Source: Geobacteraceae bacterium (GTDB taxonomy: Bacteria; Desulfobacterota; Desulfuromonadia; Geobacterales; Pseudopelobacteraceae). Taken from it: a stretch of 64,000 nt of DNA. Below are positions 8,300 to 25,685 of this stretch, in pieces. The position numbers and the translations under genes are program-made. Below the pieces are notes generated by a model. That model made no database searches and had not been told where the DNA came from. It was given only the letters and a program-made list of their open reading frames with translations. Position 1 is the stretch's first letter. Each line of letters begins with the position of its first letter. Location: the NCBI GenBank assembly GCA_025355965.1, contig JANXYR010000036.1, positions 1 to 64,000 on the forward strand, given 5' to 3'.

Positions 8300-10423
8300 T
8301 TAGTTAGTCATTTTTAGATTACGTTCCGGACGGCTGAAGTTGTGGCATAGTGAGCAGTCATAGCCCTCGCTGGCAACGTGCTTGCTGTGAACCGACATGT
8401 AGCCCGGGTTAGTTTTCTTGCTGTGGCACTGGATACAGACAACAGCTTCCGTATTCTTTAGAACATAACCCAGAGTCTTCAGGTTCATCTGGGTTGCGGT
8501 TGTGCCGTGACAGCTGGTGCAAGCCAATGCGCTTGTTTTAGGTGTTACGGTGTGGTTCAGCATCTGGTACTCATCAGTTGTTACCATGGAATAAGCATCG
8601 GCTGTACTAAAGCCCATGTTGGTCATGCCGGACAGGATGGCTGCAGCTACGTCATTGTTCTTGAAGTACAGTGCGGTGTTTACGGCAATCAGCTTGCCGG
8701 ACGCAGTGTGAAGCGGCTGTGTGGATGTTTTGTATTTGAACGGTGTAAGTTTGCTGTTGGTGCTGTTGATACCACCGTTTGGACGGCTAATCTTGTAAGC
8801 ACCGGTGGCTGGATCAATAACGGCTACGTCATACAGGTCAGACACCCATGAAGTGCCGTCGAAGAATGCGTAGACAGGCTTCAGGTTGTTGGCTTTTACA
8901 ATAGTAGGCTCCCAGCGGTTGTTGAGAACAGACCATTCAGGGGTTGCCCAGGTACGGGTTGTTTCAGTTTTCTGGTCGCCAAAGCCTGTGAGTGGGTCAA
9001 CTACTGCATCGGCAGCCATTTTCCCATAAACAGGGATGTGGCAGGTCTGGCAGGCAACACGTTTCATATGCTTGTTGATGTCAGTTGTTGCATGGCCAGC
9101 TGTAAGGGTCGCTTTGGTCGTGTGGCAGGTAGATGTCGCACAGTTAACGGCAACAGCGTTATCGGTTGGGCGCAGATCGGAGCCCCGACCGGCTACCTTG
9201 TGATTGGTGTAGGTGTGGCACTGCTGACAGGCCAGATTTGCACCTGTAGTGGCCATATGAACATCGTAGTTACGATCAGTTGTGGTGCCGTTGATCAGAG
9301 CCATATCGCCCCGTTTTAGGGCATCACCGCCACCGCCCTTGGCGTGGCACTGGAGGCAGTTGGATTTGACCGGTTTGTGAACTGTCTGTACGGCAACATC
9401 CATTGTGATGGTCATTTTGGTTGGATCCGGATCGAAAAGGCCCGTGACTGAGTTACGTACACGCTTGTAGCCCTTCTGATGACAAACGAGGCAGTCGATG
9501 TTCTGGGTAGCGTCAGCAACGGTGCCTGGTTTTGCGCCGGCGCCGATATGGCAGGAACCGCAACCGTTCCAGTTACCCAGGATGTTGATGCAGTAAGCGT
9601 TCACGGCACTGTTCAGTTTCCCACCGGTAACGCCCGGCTTGTTGCTGATCTGGCTGTTTGGGCCTTCCCATTTGTAATGCACGCTACCGGCCATGCCTGC
9701 CGCTTGGGCTGCGTGGCACTGGAGGCACATAGTCGCTCCGGTATATGTCAGGGATGCATGGCTGCCGGTAGTTGGAGGTGGCGGTGGTGTGGTACCGGCT
9801 GTAAACGTAGCTGTCTTGACGGTTTCGTTATTGCCGGCTGTGTCACGGGCAAAGTACTTCAGCGTCGTGGTCCCAGTCAGGGAGATTGGAGCGGTATAGC
9901 GGGTTGAAGCTGTTGTCGGAGTAGTACCGTTCACCGTGTAATAAATTGTGGCTGTCTCATTGGCAGTCAGGGTTATGCTTATCGGCATGGTATATGTTCC
10001 GGCTGCCGGAGAAACCGCTGTTGCCGGTGCGGTGCTATCTACTGCCACTATGGTGTTAACCTGTGGATAGGTGTAGCCCTTGACCTCATTGTCGCCTGAG
10101 GAGAACTTAGCGCGGACTTCATACTTGCCGGTTTTGGCAGAGTTGGAGAGTTTGTAGCTGTATTTGTAGGTGCCGCTTCCAGCAGAGGACATACTGGTTT
10201 TAATCAACTCGGATCCAGATGAATCTTTGATGCGGATCTCTCTGGTACCGGGAGATGTTATGACGGTGCCGTCCTTCTTGAATATGGCAGTGGTTACAAT
10301 AGTCTGGCCCGGTGTGTAGGCGGCCTTGTCTGTAGTGACAGTCAGTGTGTAGGATGCTGCGAAGGCCATTGCAGTTATGCTAAATGCCAATGCAAAAGTA
10401 AGCAGCGCGGACAATCTCTTCAT
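8300..10423 (-). CDS. secreted multiheme c-type cytochrome with Ig-like N-terminal domains
   Basis: The 707-residue protein starts at ATG 10423, preceded by AAAGGAG; an upstream ATG (10486) has no such site. After a signal peptide ending AMAFA come a beta-sandwich domain of macroglobulin MG2 type (about 25-120), a chitobiase C-terminal-like domain (about 130-205; YYTVNGTTP, YFARDTAGN), a PPPPP linker, and the haem part. I count nine CXXCH sites plus one CATSTCH (CX4CH) site, so up to ten haems. Such proteins carry electrons across or outside the outer membrane in Geobacter-type iron reduction; the exact role is inferred. A GEMM riboswitch about 180 bases upstream probably controls it, and a strong terminator follows. 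Confidence 0.92.
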   Translation of the reverse strand: MKRLSALLTFALAFSITAMAFAASYTLTVTTDKAAYTPGQTIVTTAIFKKDGTVITSPGTREIRIKDSSGSELIKTSMSSAGSGTYKYSYKLSNSAKTGKYEVRAKFSSGDNEVKGYTYPQVNTIVAVDSTAPATAVSPAAGTYTMPISITLTANETATIYYTVNGTTPTTASTRYTAPISLTGTTTLKYFARDTAGNNETVKTATFTAGTTPPPPPTTGSHASLTYTGATMCLQCHAAQAAGMAGSVHYKWEGPNSQISNKPGVTGGKLNSAVNAYCINILGNWNGCGSCHIGAGAKPGTVADATQNIDCLVCHQKGYKRVRNSVTGLFDPDPTKMTITMDVAVQTVHKPVKSNCLQCHAKGGGGDALKRGDMALINGTTTDRNYDVHMATTGANLACQQCHTYTNHKVAGRGSDLRPTDNAVAVNCATSTCHTTKATLTAGHATTDINKHMKRVACQTCHIPVYGKMAADAVVDPLTGFGDQKTETTRTWATPEWSVLNNRWEPTIVKANNLKPVYAFFDGTSWVSDLYDVAVIDPATGAYKISRPNGGINSTNSKLTPFKYKTSTQPLHTASGKLIAVNTALYFKNNDVAAAILSGMTNMGFSTADAYSMVTTDEYQMLNHTVTPKTSALACTSCHGTTATQMNLKTLGYVLKNTEAVVCIQCHSKKTNPGYMSVHSKHVASEGYDCSLCHNFSRPERNLKMTN

Positions 10424-10600
10424 ATTTTTTCTCCTTTGCGGGGTTTCCGCAGTTATGAACGTAAGCCGTAGCTTATTTGTTGGCACTTGACTACACAGAC
10501 AGGGAGGTACGTTGTCAACACCAGGCGAGGTTGCACAATCTAATTAGCTTGGTCAGATCACCGATACCCTCCTTTCATGAGTGAGATGTACTACAAACGC

Positions 10601-10650
10601 AAAACAGCCGGGCACCTAATATCAGTTTGATATTTCGGCGACCCGGCTGT
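10601..10650 (-). terminator. riboswitch expression platform (terminator hairpin)
   Basis: On the minus strand the 3' part of the aptamer (acagccggg region, 10642-10650) can pair with cccggctgt at 10604-10612, with an inner stem aatatca / tgatatt, followed by only four T residues. It shares bases with the aptamer's final conserved block, so aptamer folding and this hairpin exclude each other. That predicts gene activation when ligand is bound. Confidence 0.7.
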
Positions 10651-10707
10651 CTCAAGGAGACCCTGTAGGCTTTCCGTCCTACCTTCGCAGGTAGTTTAGT
10701 ATTATCG
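10632..10707 (-). ncRNA. GEMM-I cyclic dinucleotide riboswitch aptamer
   Basis: Read on the minus strand the sequence shows the GEMM-I landmarks in order: ATACTAAACT, a hairpin closed by a GCGA tetraloop (ctacct-GCGA-aggtag region), GGACGGAAAGCCTACAGGG, a second hairpin (gtct...agac), then AGCCGGGTCGCCGA. This family binds c-di-GMP or, in the GEMM-Ib variants known from Geobacter, 3',3'-cGAMP. In my hand alignment the base equivalent to G20 of the Vibrio Vc2 aptamer is A, which would favour 3',3'-cGAMP; the alignment in that segment is uncertain. It lies upstream of the multiheme cytochrome, a known target class for these switches. Confidence 0.85.
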
Positions 10708-10802
10708 TTACCATAAGCATTTTGTTTGCGTACAATTGCGGTTAACAATACAAATAACCACAAACATAGTCAAGTAAAAGTTATATCATGATTGTTATGG
10801 CC

Positions 10803-10865: not shown

Positions 10866-11282
10866 TTATCGCCCTTTTACTAACAGTTCCTTGAAGGGCC
10901 ACCCGGCAACGCCATCTTCCAGAATCTGCATGCGCTCTTCAAGCACACCTTTCGATAGTAAGTAGTTATAACTGTTTTTTGCGCCAGTTTTCCCGCGTGG
11001 ACAGATCACTATCACCGGGGCCTTTGAGGCTTTGATGACGGTCAGCACTTTGTCCAGTCGGGCTTTCTCTTCATCCTTTGTTGCCGGGAAAGCGTTGGTT
11101 TCGATGGATCCAGGGAGGTGCTGTTTCTCAAAATCAGCAGCAGGCTGGATATCCACCAGGATTATTTCACTCTTCTTATCCAAGAGCAGTACCAGCTCCT
11201 GCGGTTCAATGTAGTTTGCGGCCAGTACCGTGGTTGCGGCCAGCAGGATCAGAGCCAGAGACAGGGTTATCTTATTAAGCAT
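10866..11282 (-). CDS. periplasmic rhodanese-domain protein
   Basis: A 138-residue single-domain rhodanese with an N-terminal signal sequence (about residues 1-22). The active-site loop is CPRGKTG with cysteine at residue 94, the position of the persulfide-forming cysteine; GVAGWPF near the C terminus is the typical closing motif. Rhodaneses move sulfane sulfur or bind small oxyanions. The gene follows the dehydratase activator by 15 bases on the same strand, so it is part of that operon. A periplasmic rhodanese beside a cytoplasmic iron-sulfur reductase is unusual. Confidence 0.85.
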   Translation of the reverse strand: MLNKITLSLALILLAATTVLAANYIEPQELVLLLDKKSEIILVDIQPAADFEKQHLPGSIETNAFPATKDEEKARLDKVLTVIKASKAPVIVICPRGKTGAKNSYNYLLSKGVLEERMQILEDGVAGWPFKELLVKGR

Positions 11283-11297
11283 ATATGTTTCTCCTTT

Positions 11298-12053
11298 TCA
11301 TTTTTGTGTCAAAGATCGGCTTCCATGCAGTGCCGCTCCCAGTGCCCCGACGATTGAAGGTATGGGCGGAACTTGCACGGGCACTTTTAACTCCTTCTCC
11401 AGTAGCGCGATCAAAGTGGTGTTATTGGCGACCCCGCCGCTGAAGACCAGATGATCGCCATAGCCACATTTGGCAACCATGGCGGCCAACCTTCCTGCCA
11501 CGGCAAGATGCACCGAGCGGGCAATTGCCGCCGGTGCGACTCCCCGGTTTTTTAATGATACCACTTCGGATTCGGCGAATACGGCGCACATGCTATTGAT
11601 CGGAGCGCCAACTTCGGTTTCAGCTGCCGCTCGGCCAAATCCCTCCAGATCGTAACCCAGCGAAACCGCCATCATCTCCAAAAAACGCCCCGTGCCTGCT
11701 GCACATTTATCGTTCATCTGGAAGCTTTTTACCCGGCCAAGCTCATCGAGCAGAATCACCTTACTGTCCTGCCCGCCAACATCCAGAATAGTCCGGCAGT
11801 TTGGAAAAAGGTGTCTGGCCCCCAGGGCGTGTGCCTTGATTTCAGTTATCACGTCCAGCTCTGTGTGCTGCAGCAGCAGATGGCGACCATAGCCGGTGGC
11901 CACAATATGTGCCGCAGGATGTTGTCCCAAAAAAGCGAGCGCTTGGCGATGCGGATCAAAACTGCTCTCCGTGACCTGATGGTGGATGATGGCGCCGTTC
12001 TGCCAGACAACAGCCTTGAGTGTGCGTGAACCGAGATCTATACCGATTTGCAC
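11298..12053 (-). CDS. 2-hydroxyacyl-CoA dehydratase activator-type ATPase (BadF/HgdC family)
   Basis: The 251-residue protein is an ASKHA-fold ATPase with a bridging iron-sulfur cluster. It shows DLGSRTLKA (phosphate loop), DVGGQDSK, NDKCAAGTGRF and NSMCAVFAESEV; the cysteines in the last two motifs are those that hold the [4Fe-4S] cluster between two subunits in this family. Such proteins hydrolyse ATP to drive one electron into a partner dehydratase or double-cubane protein. The partner gene lies three bases upstream on the same strand. Confidence 0.92.
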   Translation of the reverse strand: MQIGIDLGSRTLKAVVWQNGAIIHHQVTESSFDPHRQALAFLGQHPAAHIVATGYGRHLLLQHTELDVITEIKAHALGARHLFPNCRTILDVGGQDSKVILLDELGRVKSFQMNDKCAAGTGRFLEMMAVSLGYDLEGFGRAAAETEVGAPINSMCAVFAESEVVSLKNRGVAPAAIARSVHLAVAGRLAAMVAKCGYGDHLVFSGGVANNTTLIALLEKELKVPVQVPPIPSIVGALGAALHGSRSLTQK

Positions 12054-12056
12054 CCG

Positions 12057-13349
12057 CTATCCTTTGATCTGCTCGATGAAGGCTTCGACCCGCGTTTGCA
12101 GTTGGCCGACATCATCAGGGGAATAGTCGCTTTCTATGGCCATGAACGGTATGCCACGCTGCTCGCAGGCCTCGCGCAGCTTGACCGCTTCGATGTTGTA
12201 GGTATGGCAAAATTGCAAACAGTAATCTATGATACCCTGGGCTCCCGATTCCTCATACTCCTTGATGACTTGAGTGATGCGCTCTTCGTTGGGCGTGAAG
12301 CAAGAACAGTCGATCTTCATGTAGCGTTCGGTCAGTCGCTCCAGTTGCTGATCCATTGTGGTTGAGCCTTCGTCAATCAGATCCTTGTAGTAGCGGGTGC
12401 CGATACAGCTTTCTTCGTTGACCACCACTGCTCCCGATGTTTCGATGATGTTATGCAGCTTCCAGTTGGGGAGCGCCATCGGGGTGCCTGAGACCATGAT
12501 TCGAGGGGTTGAAGCCGGTGCAACAGCAATCCCGTCGGTGATGCGCAGTTCCAGTTCGTTGCATAGTTCATTTACCTTCTGCGCAAAACGGACTGGTTCG
12601 TCGTAGAAAGCGATCTGCTCGATAAGCAGCATATCCTTGCCGCTTATGGGCGAAGGGTTGTGGTGGCGTAGGCTGTTAAGCCGCTGCAGCGCGGCACGTT
12701 TTGCATTGATGGTGGTAATGGCGCCGGCAATCTCCTTGAAACTTGTTTCCGTGCCGCTGATCTTATCCACTGCAACTTTGAAATCTTTCACCTCTTCGAC
12801 CCAGAGTTTCTTGTCCCGTTCGCGTTTCATCTGGGGGATTTCCATGACGTGGGTCGGCACATAGTGATCTAGCAGTTCCCATGTTTTCTTTTTGGCATCG
12901 CAGGTAGTTTCGCCATATACAAGATCCACAGCCTGGAAATAGGGGCAGATCTTGCCGACCTTGAAGCCGAAGGCGGATTTGACCATCGGGCAGATGTTAC
13001 GCGGCAAAATTTTCTCTGCATCAGCAATAGACCCTTGCGCACCACCACAGAGGCCGACGCAGACACCACCGGCAGCCACGATCAGCTCTTCGGGGACATA
13101 GACGCAGAATGTGCCGATGACCGGCTTGCCGCTTTCCTTGACAGCCATGATCTCATGAATGCGCCCGGTATGAATGTTTTCCACCATGCTGTCAAAGTAG
13201 ACCATAGCGGCGGGACGGTTTTTCTGTGATAGGAACATATTGGTGTAGGCTTGGGTCAACATGGGTGGCATACCGGAGAACCTGGCCACATCCATTCCTA
13301 ACTTTTCCCACAATTCCGGATCTGATTTTACCTGAAATGCCTCGCTCAT
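12057..13349 (-). CDS. 2-hydroxyacyl-CoA dehydratase / double-cubane cluster protein family
   Basis: This 430-residue protein starts at ATG 13349 after GGAGGG. It belongs to the HgdB/YjiM-type 2-hydroxyacyl-CoA dehydratase superfamily. Cysteines that could hold a cluster occur in GVCVGLCGG, NICPMV, ICPYFQ, TTCDAKKK and EESCIG. A single dehydratase-like subunit with one ATPase, instead of the usual alpha-beta pair, is the layout of the double-cubane cluster reductases described from Carboxydothermus, whose physiological substrate is unknown. The family and the pairing are clear; the reaction is not. A LysR regulator is transcribed divergently. Confidence 0.88.
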   Translation of the reverse strand: MSEAFQVKSDPELWEKLGMDVARFSGMPPMLTQAYTNMFLSQKNRPAAMVYFDSMVENIHTGRIHEIMAVKESGKPVIGTFCVYVPEELIVAAGGVCVGLCGGAQGSIADAEKILPRNICPMVKSAFGFKVGKICPYFQAVDLVYGETTCDAKKKTWELLDHYVPTHVMEIPQMKRERDKKLWVEEVKDFKVAVDKISGTETSFKEIAGAITTINAKRAALQRLNSLRHHNPSPISGKDMLLIEQIAFYDEPVRFAQKVNELCNELELRITDGIAVAPASTPRIMVSGTPMALPNWKLHNIIETSGAVVVNEESCIGTRYYKDLIDEGSTTMDQQLERLTERYMKIDCSCFTPNEERITQVIKEYEESGAQGIIDYCLQFCHTYNIEAVKLREACEQRGIPFMAIESDYSPDDVGQLQTRVEAFIEQIKG

Positions 13350-13412: not shown

Positions 13413-13504
13413 ATCGAATAAAATGAATGCACTTAATACCAATTGAATGCTTGTATGGCAAATAGATAATCTGGTATAAAAACGCTCTGTACTATCGAAT
13501 AAAA
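13413..13504. promoter_or_regulatory. divergent control region between LysR and dehydratase genes
   Basis: The intergenic stretch contains an exact 11-bp direct repeat, atcgaataaaa, at 13413-13423 and 13494-13504, and a 7-bp repeat, tgaatgc, at 13424-13430 and 13444-13450 spaced two helical turns apart. The region is A+T-rich and lies between divergent genes, where LysR-type regulators usually bind. Which repeats matter is not known. Confidence 0.45.
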
Positions 13505-13517
13505 CGATGGAGATGCC

Positions 13518-14408
13518 ATGACGTTTAAACAGTTGCAGGTTTTTTTGGCTATTGCCGACACGCACAGTTTTTCAAAAGGTGGTGAAACCGTTAGCTTGGC
13601 CCAGTCCACGGCCAGTCAGCATATCCGAGCTCTTGAAGATGAACTTGGGGCGCGTCTGTTTGACCGTTCTGCCAGCCATGTTACCCTGACGGAGGCTGGG
13701 CGGCTGTTTTATGAACATGCTGCCCGGATCTGCGGTCAGTTTGGAGAGGCAATAACTGCGGTCAGGCGCTTTCAGGGCCTTGAACAGGCGACTCTGCGTG
13801 TTGGGGCCAGCACCATTCCGGCTGCCTGTCTGATCCCTGATCTGCTGGGTAGTTTCAGTGCCGCCCAACCCGGAGTAGGACTTGAGGTTATACAAGGGGA
13901 TACCCGTGAGGTGATTCGCCTGCTGCAGGATGAAGCAATTGAACTTGCAGTGGTCGGTGGTCAGTATGATGCTGATACGATCTGTTTCCAGGAGGTTTGT
14001 GCCGAGCGGATCGTGTTAGTAGCGCTGCCTGGACAGTTTTCTGAAGCGGTGGTGACTGTACGGCAACTGCAGGAAATGCCGTTGCTGCTTAGAGAACCGG
14101 GGTCCGGAACCAGGCTGGCAGTGGATGGTGCATTACAGAAAGGAGGTCTTGATCTGCGTAGCATGCGGGTGGTCGCCCAGCTTGGCAGCAGCGAGGCGCT
14201 CCGGCGTGCGGTGCTTAGTGGCGCAGGGTGCGCTTTTTTGTCCGCCCTGGCGGTTGGAAGAGAATTGGCCGACGGTACGCTCACGGCGGTGGGTATTGAA
14301 GGAATAGAAATAAGCCGCAGCTTTTATCTTGCTTGGCGCCGGGGGAAGAGCCTGTCTCCGGCAGCAGAAGTTTTTATGGAGGCGGTGCGGCAGATGAAAA
14401 AATATTAA
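13518..14408 (+). CDS. LysR-family transcriptional regulator
   Basis: A 296-residue LysR protein: N-terminal winged helix (MTFKQLQVFLAIADTHSF, then STASQHIRALEDELGARLFDR) and a two-lobed effector-binding domain from about residue 90. GGAG precedes the ATG. It is divergent from the dehydratase / ATPase / rhodanese operon and probably controls it, with an unknown inducer. The effector domain resembles those of CysL/YeiE-type members by eye, but I cannot assign the ligand. Confidence 0.92.
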   Translation: MTFKQLQVFLAIADTHSFSKGGETVSLAQSTASQHIRALEDELGARLFDRSASHVTLTEAGRLFYEHAARICGQFGEAITAVRRFQGLEQATLRVGASTIPAACLIPDLLGSFSAAQPGVGLEVIQGDTREVIRLLQDEAIELAVVGGQYDADTICFQEVCAERIVLVALPGQFSEAVVTVRQLQEMPLLLREPGSGTRLAVDGALQKGGLDLRSMRVVAQLGSSEALRRAVLSGAGCAFLSALAVGRELADGTLTAVGIEGIEISRSFYLAWRRGKSLSPAAEVFMEAVRQMKKY

Positions 14409-14419
14409 GGTTAGTTAAA

Positions 14420-15544
14420 TCATAGCGGTTCAACAATCAACCCCAGCGCTTTTTTGTAGCAGGCTGCAGCAGTCGCCGGATCTTTCAACTCTTCGTACGC
14501 CATTCCTTTGTAAAAAAAGAGTTTATAGTCCTTGGGATTATGTTCTTCGGCTTTATTAAACCACAGCAGCGCCTGGGCCGAGTCTCCCTTTTTGCCTTTC
14601 AGGAGTCCTAAAAAATAGTAGCTGGGCAGATATGCCTCGTCTGCCTTGATAGCCTTGTTCAGTGCGATCTCTGCGTCGGCAAAATTTCCTTCGTCCAGCA
14701 AAATTTGTCCCATTGAACTCAGGGCTATTGCATTATCAGGTTTCTTTTGTAGAACAAGCTCGAACTGTTTTTTCGCTTCAACCAAATCGTGCTGTTTGTA
14801 GTACAGAGTACCAAGGCTGATGTATGGCAACGTGAATGCTGGATCTGCGGCAATTGCCTTCTCAAACCAACCTTTAGCCTTTGCAGCGGTTCTATCGGAT
14901 TTTAGAGAACTCATTCCCATATTCCACAACCTGACTGCCTTTTTGTCTGGCTGGTAACCCGCTGCTACTGTCTCGGTCGGCATTTTCTTGTTTTCTATAA
15001 CAACTTCAACGAAATCATTAAGGCTGTCGGCTCCCATCAAGGGAAAACCCGATAACTCATACTTGATAACCCGGTTGTTATCGATAATTAACGTGCTGGG
15101 AACAGCTATTATTCCATAGCTGTTGAAGGTAGTCAGACCACGATCAACCAGCAGAGGGAAGGTAATATTCAGCGATGTTGCACTGCCCTTGATTTTGCCA
15201 AGGGTCTCTTCGGTTACCTCCTGTTTGTCAACGTTGATGCCTATGACCGACAGACCAATGTCCTTGTACTTCTGGTGAAGACCCTGCAACTGCTTCAGGG
15301 CCTTTTTTGAGTTTTCACTCCAGGTTGCCCAAAAAAGCACAATGGTCAGTTTATCTCCTTTAAGAGCTGTAATTGATTGTGTTTGCCCGTTCAGGTCAGT
15401 CAAGGAAAAATCCGGTGCCTCCATCCCCAACTCCAGTGAACGCATGGCGGAGGATGATATTGTTGTATTCAACAGAATAATCAAAACCAACAACGGCATC
15501 AGACGAACAGCAAGCGATCCGGTATTAAAGGTGAATCTTTTCAT
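14420..15544 (-). CDS. exported TlpA-like thioredoxin-fold protein with TPR repeats, lacking CXXC
   Basis: The 374-residue protein has a signal segment (about 10-33), a peroxiredoxin/TlpA-type fold (APDFSLTDLNGQ, VLFWATWSENSKKAL, then IAVPSTLIID), and three to four C-terminal TPR units (GWFEKAIAADPAF, KKQFELVLQKKPDN, EIALNKAIKADEAY). Where active TlpA proteins have WCxxC this one reads WSENS, so it has no redox cysteine pair and probably acts as a scaffold. It is the last gene of an operon with a TPR protein and a multiheme cytochrome, suggesting a role in cytochrome assembly or docking. It converges with the LysR gene, 11 bases apart. Confidence 0.85.
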   Translation of the reverse strand: MKRFTFNTGSLAVRLMPLLVLIILLNTTISSSAMRSLELGMEAPDFSLTDLNGQTQSITALKGDKLTIVLFWATWSENSKKALKQLQGLHQKYKDIGLSVIGINVDKQEVTEETLGKIKGSATSLNITFPLLVDRGLTTFNSYGIIAVPSTLIIDNNRVIKYELSGFPLMGADSLNDFVEVVIENKKMPTETVAAGYQPDKKAVRLWNMGMSSLKSDRTAAKAKGWFEKAIAADPAFTLPYISLGTLYYKQHDLVEAKKQFELVLQKKPDNAIALSSMGQILLDEGNFADAEIALNKAIKADEAYLPSYYFLGLLKGKKGDSAQALLWFNKAEEHNPKDYKLFFYKGMAYEELKDPATAAACYKKALGLIVEPL

Positions 15545-15549
15545 GGGCT

Positions 15550-15879
15550 CTAACGTCTCCCCTGCTCATGTATTTTGATGCCTTCTTTGAAGGCAGCAAT
15601 CGCTTTCAAGCTGTCACCACGCTGTTCGTGGATGCGGCCAAGCTCATAATATACCCGTGCCGGGTCAGGGGTAAGTGCCAGAACCTGCTGCAGTAAAAGT
15701 TCTGCAGCATCCAGTTTTCCCTGGCGTAGAAGGTCCAACGCCATTTCGGTTTTTCCCTTATTGTCAAGAGTGCCGACCTTTTCCTCGAGCCCCTTGCTTT
15801 CATCACTCGTGGCTGCCATTGAAGGCACAGCCACGAGTGTCACAACCAGAAAATATAACCATATGCTGGTACGGATCAT
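15550..15879 (-). CDS. small periplasmic TPR protein
   Basis: A 109-residue protein with signal peptide (to about residue 22, cleavage near SMA-A) and two TPR units (MALDLLRQGKLDAAELLLQ; VYYELGRIHEQRGDSLKAIA). It overlaps the cytochrome gene upstream by 4 bp and is followed after five bases by the TPR-thioredoxin gene, so the three are translationally linked. Probably a protein-binding partner of the cytochrome. Confidence 0.8.
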   Translation of the reverse strand: MIRTSIWLYFLVVTLVAVPSMAATSDESKGLEEKVGTLDNKGKTEMALDLLRQGKLDAAELLLQQVLALTPDPARVYYELGRIHEQRGDSLKAIAAFKEGIKIHEQGRR

Positions 15880-17243
15880 CTGTTTTTCACCTTATTGTTG
15901 CGATCATATTTGAACTCTTGATGACAACCCGGTAGACAGGAACCTCCGGTCTGGTTTTTTACCAATCCAACCGGTAGCTGCCATGCGCCAAAGGGGACAG
16001 TATCTCTGACGTGTTTCGGGTTGTTAGTGGCGTGGGCGTCGTGGCAGGCACGGCAGGTTCTACCCTTTGGAGTCTTGTTTACGTGTACGAAGTGCAGGTT
16101 TTGGTCGCCATTTCGGAAGCCTGTCAAAGTAGTGGTTTTGGCGTCTTTTACCAAGGTGTCATTGTGGCAGTTAAAGCAGAGCTCATAGTTTTTAGGGTCG
16201 TATTTGGCATAGAAAACCGGGCTCAAGTTCCCTCTCAAAATCCTGAAATCTTTTGATCCGTGGGTATTGTGACAGCCTGAACAGTCCTTGTCCTTTATCG
16301 GCCCATGAGTGATTTTGTTTTTGGCGAGGAATCCTTTCATATCGGAAACCTTTTTGTCGCCACTGCCATATTCACGGTCGTGGCAACTCAAGCAGAGATC
16401 CATAGGTGCCATTGCCAACTGCTTTGGAAAAGCCGAGGTATGGGGACCATGACAAGCCAAACAGCCATTAGGCAGCTCAAGCCCGCCATGTTTAACGGTG
16501 ACAGCTGAAATTTCCTTCTGCTTATCTTTGTGGCAGGCAAAACAGACCCCCTTGGTGCTCTCTCCAATCAGGGTAAACTTGTAATCACTGCTGTGCGGGT
16601 TGTGGCACTGGATGCAACCGGTTTTCATCGGCGAATGGATATGCTTTTTGGAGGCAAATTCAGTCTTTTTGTCTGTATGGCAACTATAACAGACATCGTT
16701 TCCCTTCGCGGCCAATAGATTGGGGAAGTTGCCGGAATGGTGGCTGTGACAGGCGCTACACTCACCGTCATTTACCGGGCCATGTTTAACCTTGCCGCTA
16801 ATGATGGTCTTTTTATGACACTTTAAGCAGAGGCCCTGACCTCCCCCAAGCAACTGGAATTTGTATCCGGACTCGTGCGGGCTGTGGCAACCGGTACATT
16901 TACCCTCTTTAACCGGTTTGTGCACTACCGGACCCAAGTGCAGTTTGTCATGGCAGGAATAACAGACTTCTCCTACATTGGTAATAGGCTTGAATTCGTG
17001 CAGATTTTTATTACTCTGTTTATGACAGAATGTGCAATTTCTGGTGGCTACCGGGCCATGAACAAATTTATCCTTACCCATATTAGAGTGGCAATCAGAA
17101 GTTACACAGCTCTTGCCCTCTTTCAAAGAAAAACTTGATTTGGCTTCGGACGGCGCTACACACAACGCAACAAGCAACAAAACAACTCCTATGGCACAGC
17201 TTGTTAAGGCTAACAGCTGTCGGTACTGCAATGCTCTGAACAT
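15876..17243 (-). CDS. periplasmic multiheme c-type cytochrome with 13 CXXCH sites
   Basis: The 455-residue protein has an N-terminal signal/anchor (about 12-34) followed by repeated modules of one CXXCH, a spacer, then HGP or HxP and a second CXXCH (for example CTGCHSPHESGY, CSACHSHHSGNF), the layout called doubled CXXCH / NrfB-like. I count 13 standard CXXCH sites plus CVTSDCH (CX4CH) near the start and CLPGCH (CX3CH) at the end, so 13 to 15 haems. It likely carries electrons through the periplasm or at the outer membrane. It leads a three-gene operon with TPR proteins. No GEMM riboswitch is visible upstream. Confidence 0.93.
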   Translation of the reverse strand: MFRALQYRQLLALTSCAIGVVLLLVALCVAPSEAKSSFSLKEGKSCVTSDCHSNMGKDKFVHGPVATRNCTFCHKQSNKNLHEFKPITNVGEVCYSCHDKLHLGPVVHKPVKEGKCTGCHSPHESGYKFQLLGGGQGLCLKCHKKTIISGKVKHGPVNDGECSACHSHHSGNFPNLLAAKGNDVCYSCHTDKKTEFASKKHIHSPMKTGCIQCHNPHSSDYKFTLIGESTKGVCFACHKDKQKEISAVTVKHGGLELPNGCLACHGPHTSAFPKQLAMAPMDLCLSCHDREYGSGDKKVSDMKGFLAKNKITHGPIKDKDCSGCHNTHGSKDFRILRGNLSPVFYAKYDPKNYELCFNCHNDTLVKDAKTTTLTGFRNGDQNLHFVHVNKTPKGRTCRACHDAHATNNPKHVRDTVPFGAWQLPVGLVKNQTGGSCLPGCHQEFKYDRNNKVKNR

Positions 17244-25376: not shown

Positions 25377-25685
25377 TCATTTCTCAACCGTCAACCCTGC
25401 TCTGCGCCACCCCGCCATATGCCCATCAAGGAGTGCCACGTTGCGGTAGCCGTACAGCCCCAAAAGCCCCTGAGCCATCTGGGCACGTGGACCATGCTCG
25501 CAGAGTACAACCAGCTTGGCCTCTTTGTTCTTTGGAAGTTTTGCCATTTTAAACAGGATTTTCCAGGTCGGGGTGTGGATGGCGCCAGGGACGTGACCGC
25601 TGTTAAATTCGAAACCGCTGCGAACATCAATGACGGTCGGTGACTTTTTTGATTTTATAAGTTGGACTAACTCTTTAGCTTGCAC
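25377..25685 (-). CDS. cytoplasmic rhodanese-domain protein
   Basis: A 102-residue single-domain rhodanese without signal peptide. VIDVRSGFEFNSGHVPGAIH and the active-site loop CEHGPRAQ carry the family signature, with the persulfide cysteine at about residue 62. It is similar to GlpE/PspE-type sulfurtransferases. It begins a short minus-strand run with the J-domain protein (10 to 40 bases apart). Confidence 0.9.
   Translation of the reverse strand: MQAKELVQLIKSKKSPTVIDVRSGFEFNSGHVPGAIHTPTWKILFKMAKLPKNKEAKLVVLCEHGPRAQMAQGLLGLYGYRNVALLDGHMAGWRRAGLTVEK

Follow-up and report, generated by a model that had tools for sequence, protein, structure and literature searches.

A double-cubane cluster protein operon with a predicted exported rhodanese and a divergent selenium-type LysR gene in a Geobacteraceae bacterium

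We analysed a 64,000-nucleotide stretch of DNA from a Geobacteraceae bacterium (assembly GCA_025355965.1, contig JANXYR010000036.1, positions 1 to 64,000; referred to below as the window), in which three closely spaced minus-strand genes encode a double-cubane cluster protein (DCCP), its ATPase and a rhodanese, with a LysR regulator gene diverging from them. The catalytic DCCP subunit (12057–13349, 430 aa) starts at an ATG at 13349 preceded by GGAGGG. It is followed after 3 nt by its ATP-dependent reductase partner, an activase of the BcrAD/BadFG type (11298–12053, 251 aa, GTG start), and, after a further gap of 15 nt containing an AGGAG site, by a single-domain rhodanese of the type that we call RHO1 (10866–11282, 138 aa). 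The LysR gene (13518–14408, plus strand) is of the selenium-metabolism-associated type (LysR_Se), and the spacer holds a candidate LysR operator (13433–13484, no strand assigned). This four-gene layout had been claimed in an initial annotation of the window and is confirmed, each gene lying at or beside the place first assigned to it. The genome, 3.35 Mb in size and 99.9% complete, carries the window on contig C41. DCCP, ATPase and rhodanese are probably co-transcribed; promoter and terminator scans gave no clear excess over shuffled sequences. We propose, at about even chances, that this operon joins an ATP-driven reductase of very low potential to an exported carrier of sulfane sulfur or selenium, under a selenium-type LysR, and serves the supply of selenide (or sulfide).

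The family model, the nearest solved structures, the cysteines and the tree all support the assignment as a double-cubane reductase made in the initial annotation. The protein scores 483.1 bits against the NF040772 double_cubane equivalog model (cut-off 350), and its top hits among solved chains are 7yyl_C and 6eno_A, both from DCCP structures (E ~1e-148), with the 6eno-type match spanning 418 of the 430 residues; the next solved match, 3o3m_B, reaches only 75 bits. When 207 proteins were aligned, C82, C120, C150, C315, C348 and C381 proved common to the window protein, 6eno and BzdN, the last two of which were solved with [8Fe-9S], and are invariant in every DCCP relative with letters at those columns; 3o3m_B (HadC, [4Fe-5S]) is without C82 and C315. 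The sharing with 6eno and BzdN suggests that these six cysteines are the ligands of an [8Fe-9S] cluster, and such a cluster is probably made in the window DCCP. The solved proteins, which we take to be those of Carboxydothermus hydrogenoformans, resemble the window system in DCCP sequence, in the six cysteines and in the ATPase; the difference is that the window DCCP has an exported rhodanese 3' of it and a selenium-type LysR beside it. An Escherichia coli DCCP-type protein also exceeds the NF040772 cut-off, and with its ATPase presumably represents YjiM/YjiL. The closest named relatives by DCCP come from records titled Geobacteraceae and Desulfuromonadaceae. Two loci (L095 and L099) carry a tandem pair of DCCP genes in which the first bears only a distant resemblance to the second.

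The Pfam family of the window protein, PF06050, is shared with true 2-hydroxyacyl-CoA dehydratases and benzoyl-CoA reductases, and it might on this ground be a subunit of such an enzyme with its partner encoded elsewhere. We regard this as extremely improbable. The whole genome contains exactly one HGD-D match, the window DCCP itself, so that the one-subunit character first claimed for it holds, and the NCBIfam HadC and BzdN models stay far below their cut-offs (101.6 against 700 and 73.6 against 453.8, respectively). BzdN, from a class I benzoyl-CoA reductase (8s02_B), has the same fold family and the same six aligned cysteines and carries [8Fe-9S], but it works as a heterodimer with a catalytic partner and shows just 69 bits of similarity. 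The phylogeny against DCCP and HgdB clades that had been suggested as a check does not place the window protein with the two-subunit dehydratases: in a FastTree of 205 rows it falls with 6eno in a clade of 167 rows (support 95), and the 14 dehydratase-type outgroup rows lie on one side, across a separating branch with support of only 78 and with long branches. On the HGD-D count, the cysteines and the tree we rejected the reading as a dehydratase proper whose second subunit is encoded far away.

The ATPase, also as first claimed, matches the activase model TIGR00241 (210.7 bits, cut-off 125.4) and PF01869 (174.1 bits), and its best solved match is 7yyl_E (E 8.5e-48), from the same PDB entry as the DCCP chain 7yyl_C. 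The rhodanese matches PF00581 with 42.7 bits (cut-off 22.2). Its N-terminus, MLNK followed by a hydrophobic stretch and then ...VLAAN, reads by eye and by hydropathy as a Sec signal peptide, so that the claim of an exported rhodanese held and the protein is predicted to be periplasmic. The active-site loop is CPRGKTG with the catalytic Cys94, and C94, P95, G97, G100 and A101 are invariant among 18 aligned rhodaneses. An AlphaFold model (pLDDT 89.1) has the rhodanese-superfamily fold. Foldseek returned 71 matches to it at E <=0.001, led by MKP5, BH2092 and Cdc25-type domains at a TM of ~0.6 and including YgaP and GlpE. A sequence search of the PDB and a scan of NCBIfam gave no match for this cysteine-type rhodanese. 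It is predicted to transfer sulfur or selenium.

Is the rhodanese a regular companion of DCCP? We compared two sets of loci, a near set of 83 chosen by similarity to the window DCCP (80 kept of the 98 found with it, plus 3 more) and a phylum sample of 105, with 5 contigs common to both. A rhodanese lies within 4.5 kb of DCCP in 41 of the 83 near loci. The 665.6 kb within that distance contain 60 rhodanese matches, all 60 on the DCCP strand, against ~1.8 expected from the Pfam-model density in 58 family and order genomes, an estimate made with a different model and for a group less broad than that of the 83 loci; the outer flank (4.5–8.5 kb, 451.9 kb) contains only 6. The loci are related and the counts are therefore not independent. 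In neighbour clustering the rhodanese is the commonest neighbour after DCCP and ATPase: 40 of the 84 loci hold 49 such genes, 48 of them on the DCCP strand. In the phylum sample, in contrast, a rhodanese is near DCCP in only 3 of 105 loci. The strong link is therefore confined to one part of the DCCP tree, and the earlier expectation that the rhodanese is conserved in the operon stands for this sub-group and fails for DCCP loci in general. Three rhodanese forms with signal-like N-termini occur at DCCP loci, namely the single-domain form of the window, a CGFVKCTRS form and a two-domain form, and 7 loci encode a MauE/DoxX-like protein, in most cases immediately upstream of the CGFVKCTRS form. 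Shortly after the ATPase, on the same strand, 15 of 84 loci carry a protein of ~163 aa that is RelE/HigB-like by eye (for example L128:5284-5775); the L128 protein has no Pfam or NCBIfam match.

The divergent LysR scores 251.4 bits (250.9 in the genome-wide scan) against NF040786, the model of selenium metabolism-associated LysR proteins (cut-off 250), and is the only match over the cut-off in the whole genome. It shares this with LysR_Se/HrsM and differs from LysR_Se in not lying beside SelD and in being paired with a rhodanese in this bacterial family. RHO1 was found at E <1e-40 in 38 of the 76 genomes of a family survey, and we read the neighbourhoods of all 38. LysR is directly divergent from RHO1 in 24 of them, DCCP-ATPase lies directly upstream of RHO1 in 5 (the window genome included), and neither is beside it in 9 at the LysR threshold used, among them G031 with an unlabelled divergent ORF of 321 aa. 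Of the 24 paired LysR proteins 22 exceed the NF040786 cut-off, one (G011) is just under it and one (G067, at a contig end) has no match. The divergent LysR claimed initially is therefore borne out; the NF040786 match had been missed, as had the fact that in this family LysR-RHO1 pairs outnumber RHO1-DCCP pairs.

The LysR-rhodanese spacers of relatives have a sequence in common, and it recurs in the window. A model built from 16 LysR-RHO1 spacers, none of them from the window genome or G006, scores 52.3 at 13445–13478, within the range of its training sites (45.4–58.3), and its next best score in the 64-kb window is 4.2. The core occurs in 17 of 34 LysR upstream regions, that is in 16 of the 24 LysR-RHO1 spacers and in the window; as searched it was not found in the other 8 spacers. 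A strict pattern hit 11 of the 76 family genomes and missed others, among them G006, which differs in spacing or letters; in the window genome it gave one match and no second site, with none in the reversed control. Among 80 DCCP loci only L088 and L094 score above 12, so the other DCCP operons of that set are without the operator. LysR orthology accounts for part of the spacer conservation; what is notable is that DCCP, not the rhodanese, now follows the candidate operator. From these sequences LysR may be expected to bind the spacer and to respond to selenium. Some LysR-rhodanese loci of relatives (among L064, L168-L187, L198 and L199) extend further, with genes 3' of the rhodanese for a dicluster protein, DUF3047, a VTT protein, MsrA, MsrB or an FAD oxidoreductase. 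The dicluster protein scores 181 bits against 'diclust_near_Sec' (cut-off 530), of which it resembles one half, and these loci may represent an operon for periplasmic repair or for the handling of selenium.

Such pairs raise the question of whether LysR and rhodanese form a unit of their own, into which DCCP-ATPase was merely inserted with no shared reaction. The arrangement in the family speaks for this, as nothing stands between LysR and RHO1 in the 24 genomes with the pair, and DCCP-ATPase comes between them in only 2 of the 38, the window genome and G006. However, in Geomonas RHO1 follows DCCP-ATPase with no LysR within 4.5 kb (L093, L096-L098, L100 and L134). The recurrence of all three rhodanese forms at DCCP loci likewise argues against a mere insertion, and on the best DCCP tree 22 changes are required to explain where the rhodanese is present, a figure to be read with the many weak branches of that tree and with contig ends that can mimic losses. 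We consider a mere regulatory passenger improbable.

The markers that point towards selenium are found at the loci of relatives, where we counted SelD, YedF and HesB_Se within 4.5 kb of DCCP. In the near set HesB_Se occurs 21 times, YedF 9 times and SelD 4 times, with any marker at 25 loci, 15 of which are among the 41 with a rhodanese; in the phylum set there are 21 YedF, 12 SelD and 1 HesB, with any marker at 30 loci. At one SelD per ~3.3 Mb only ~0.3 of the 105 phylum loci would have SelD this close by chance. A LysR like that of the window is present at 10 of 83 near and 10 of 105 phylum loci, and counting it as well brings the loci with any marker to 33 of 83 and 33 of 105. The cluster representatives match TIGR03527 YedF (199 bits, L143), NF038090 IscA_HesB_Se (133 bits) and TIGR00476 SelD (380 bits, L143). 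The fullest arrangement is in L142 and L143, from metagenome-assembled genomes titled Proteobacteria bacterium, where HdrA, FlpD, SelD, YedF, DsbC, HesB_Se, DCCP, ATPase and RHO1 all lie on one strand, within ~7 kb from SelD to the rhodanese; in L142 a distance of 279 nt separates the end of the ATPase ORF from the rhodanese start, and in L143 one opposite-strand ORF of 196 aa is called between YedF and DsbC. L136 has SelD, YedF and HesB_Se together with the other rhodanese forms. In the window genome itself SelD and then YedF are adjacent on another contig (C46).

In two of the three rhodanese-bearing phylum loci, L162 and L229, UGA codons replace both cysteines of the CxxxxC motif in the rhodanese beside DCCP, giving UxxxxU (L162:4856-5353 and L229:6937-7416), and the frame is otherwise free of stops across the domain. 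The L162 protein scores 201.6 bits against NF045694 (TsoB) over positions 4–159 of 572, where the whole-protein cut-off is 805; it thus matches, as a separate gene, the rhodanese half of the TsoB of the Tso operon, with its UxxxxU motif. TsoB is a rhodanese/DsbD fusion, while the window rhodanese is a cysteine-type form. Two papers list rhodanese selenoproteins (PMC9312934, PMC13188914), the latter with TsoB. No SECIS-like fold stood out 3' of the L162 UGA codons against shuffles (z 0.04), and the case for selenocysteine in this type of rhodanese is therefore the retention of the UxxxxU frame at both loci rather than any RNA structure. Rhodanese domains with a single in-frame TGA were also seen in relatives (G003:C2:49414-49704, G004:C121:28541-28828 and G027:C8:49771-50061) and are possible selenoproteins.

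How might the parts work together? In the mechanism that we envisage the ATPase would power electron transfer to the DCCP double cubane. Outside the inner membrane the rhodanese would bind sulfane sulfur or selenium on Cys94, and the selenium or sulfur would then enter the cytoplasm by a presumed route across the inner membrane. There DCCP would reductively free selenide or sulfide, or keep it reduced, for SelD, the rest of selenium metabolism or Fe-S/Se assembly, and LysR would tune the operon to selenium supply, like its relative HrsM in Methanococcus. HrsM is described as adjusting genes to selenium supply in that organism in PMC5322559 and PMC11097638. The substrate is likely to be a selenium or sulfur compound, and we infer that selenium fits the operon best; the "sulfur or selenium" hint of the initial annotation is narrowed towards selenium by inference only, from the LysR model match and the neighbours in relatives. 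More tentatively still, and with low confidence, selenium supply could be the natural role of this whole DCCP branch, the ATP-charged double cubane freeing selenide from an inert selenium compound and exported rhodaneses, some of them selenocysteine-bearing, acting as dedicated selenium carriers.

Several points weigh against the proposed role of the window operon. The compartments differ, with the rhodanese in the periplasm and the reductase in the cytoplasm, and rhodaneses mostly carry sulfur. The LysR margin over the NF040786 cut-off is marginal (~1 bit), the sister LysR in G006 is below it (245.5), and the G006 spacer, at 44.8, falls just under the training range of the operator model. There is no SelD, YedF or HesB_Se near the window operon, and 58 of 83 near and 75 of 105 phylum loci lack any marker within 4.5 kb, some because contigs end. 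On the tree, an independent-pairs test for an association between rhodanese and selenium markers was not significant (median p 0.125). SelD is present in 270 of 296 phylum genomes, being absent from 5 of 106 with DCCP and 21 of 190 without (p 0.09; 6 of the 26 SelD-less genomes are inferred rather than listed). Since it is nearly everywhere, its genome-level co-occurrence with DCCP is uninformative and was dropped as evidence.

One alternative is that sulfur is the actual element: the periplasmic rhodanese would act on thiosulfate or polysulfide, the cytoplasmic DCCP would reduce a sulfur compound, and the selenium neighbours would reflect chemistry shared by the two elements. A rhodanese is normally a sulfane-sulfur enzyme, the basic CPRGK loop is, we assume, similar to that of thiosulfate sulfurtransferases, and many relatives are, by their record titles, Desulfobulbaceae or Desulfocapsa, which are sulfur-cycling groups; DsbC and MauE/DoxX among the neighbours would also fit. 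Against it speak the SelD, YedF and HesB_Se neighbours, the UGA rhodaneses at DCCP loci and the selenium-type LysR. None of the 10 recurrent neighbour clusters that we scanned is named as sulfur assimilation or oxidation, in a scan that excluded others such as an unlabelled cluster in 20 loci, and the TusA/DsrE protein among the scanned clusters is YedF. A purely sulfur-based role is possible, in our opinion, and rather unlikely.

A general detoxifying reductase is a further alternative, in which DCCP would act on small toxic or inert molecules and the rhodanese, in parallel, on cyanide or similar compounds. Its basis is the activity of DCCP in vitro on the test substrates acetylene, azide and hydrazine, given in a 2025 paper (PMC11971306). 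Among the named genes of the neighbourhoods that we scanned none suggests such compounds, and the selenium-type LysR would be left unexplained; we consider this explanation very unlikely. DCCPs carry an unusual [8Fe-9S] cluster, and the same paper states that their biological function and natural substrate are not known, so the earlier remark to that effect is still current; the selenium neighbours now make the purpose testable. The Geomonas DCCP-ATPase-rhodanese operons, the candidate operator and the candidate element open the function to simple gene-removal and expression tests.

A link between DCCP and selenium is already suspected in print. According to Lin 2015 (PMC5322559), LysR_Se of Slackia has a 2-hydroxyglutaryl-CoA dehydratase gene as its highest-ranked STRING partner, while the STRING partners of YedF there include activase and dehydratase genes. 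Our literature search covered open-licence papers, and among these none pairs a double-cubane protein with a rhodanese and none deals with rhodanese, LysR, selenium and Geobacter together. As far as this search goes, the linkage to an exported rhodanese, the LysR_Se-rhodanese pair with its shared spacer and the SelD-YedF-HesB-DCCP-rhodanese group are new.

The surroundings of the operon in the window contain further features. Just downstream of the rhodanese is a c-di-GMP-I riboswitch (Rfam RF01051, 43.7 bits; 10634–10710, minus strand), which precedes an ORF for a multihaem cytochrome (8300–10486, CxxCH motifs by eye). On the other side a redoxin-TPR protein (14420–17243, minus strand) adjoins LysR, with the same neighbour in L068 and L199, and further on from it lies a multihaem cytochrome, again recognised by eye. 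Another rhodanese domain is found in the window at 25401–25679 (minus strand), and the genome has 21 rhodanese matches in total.

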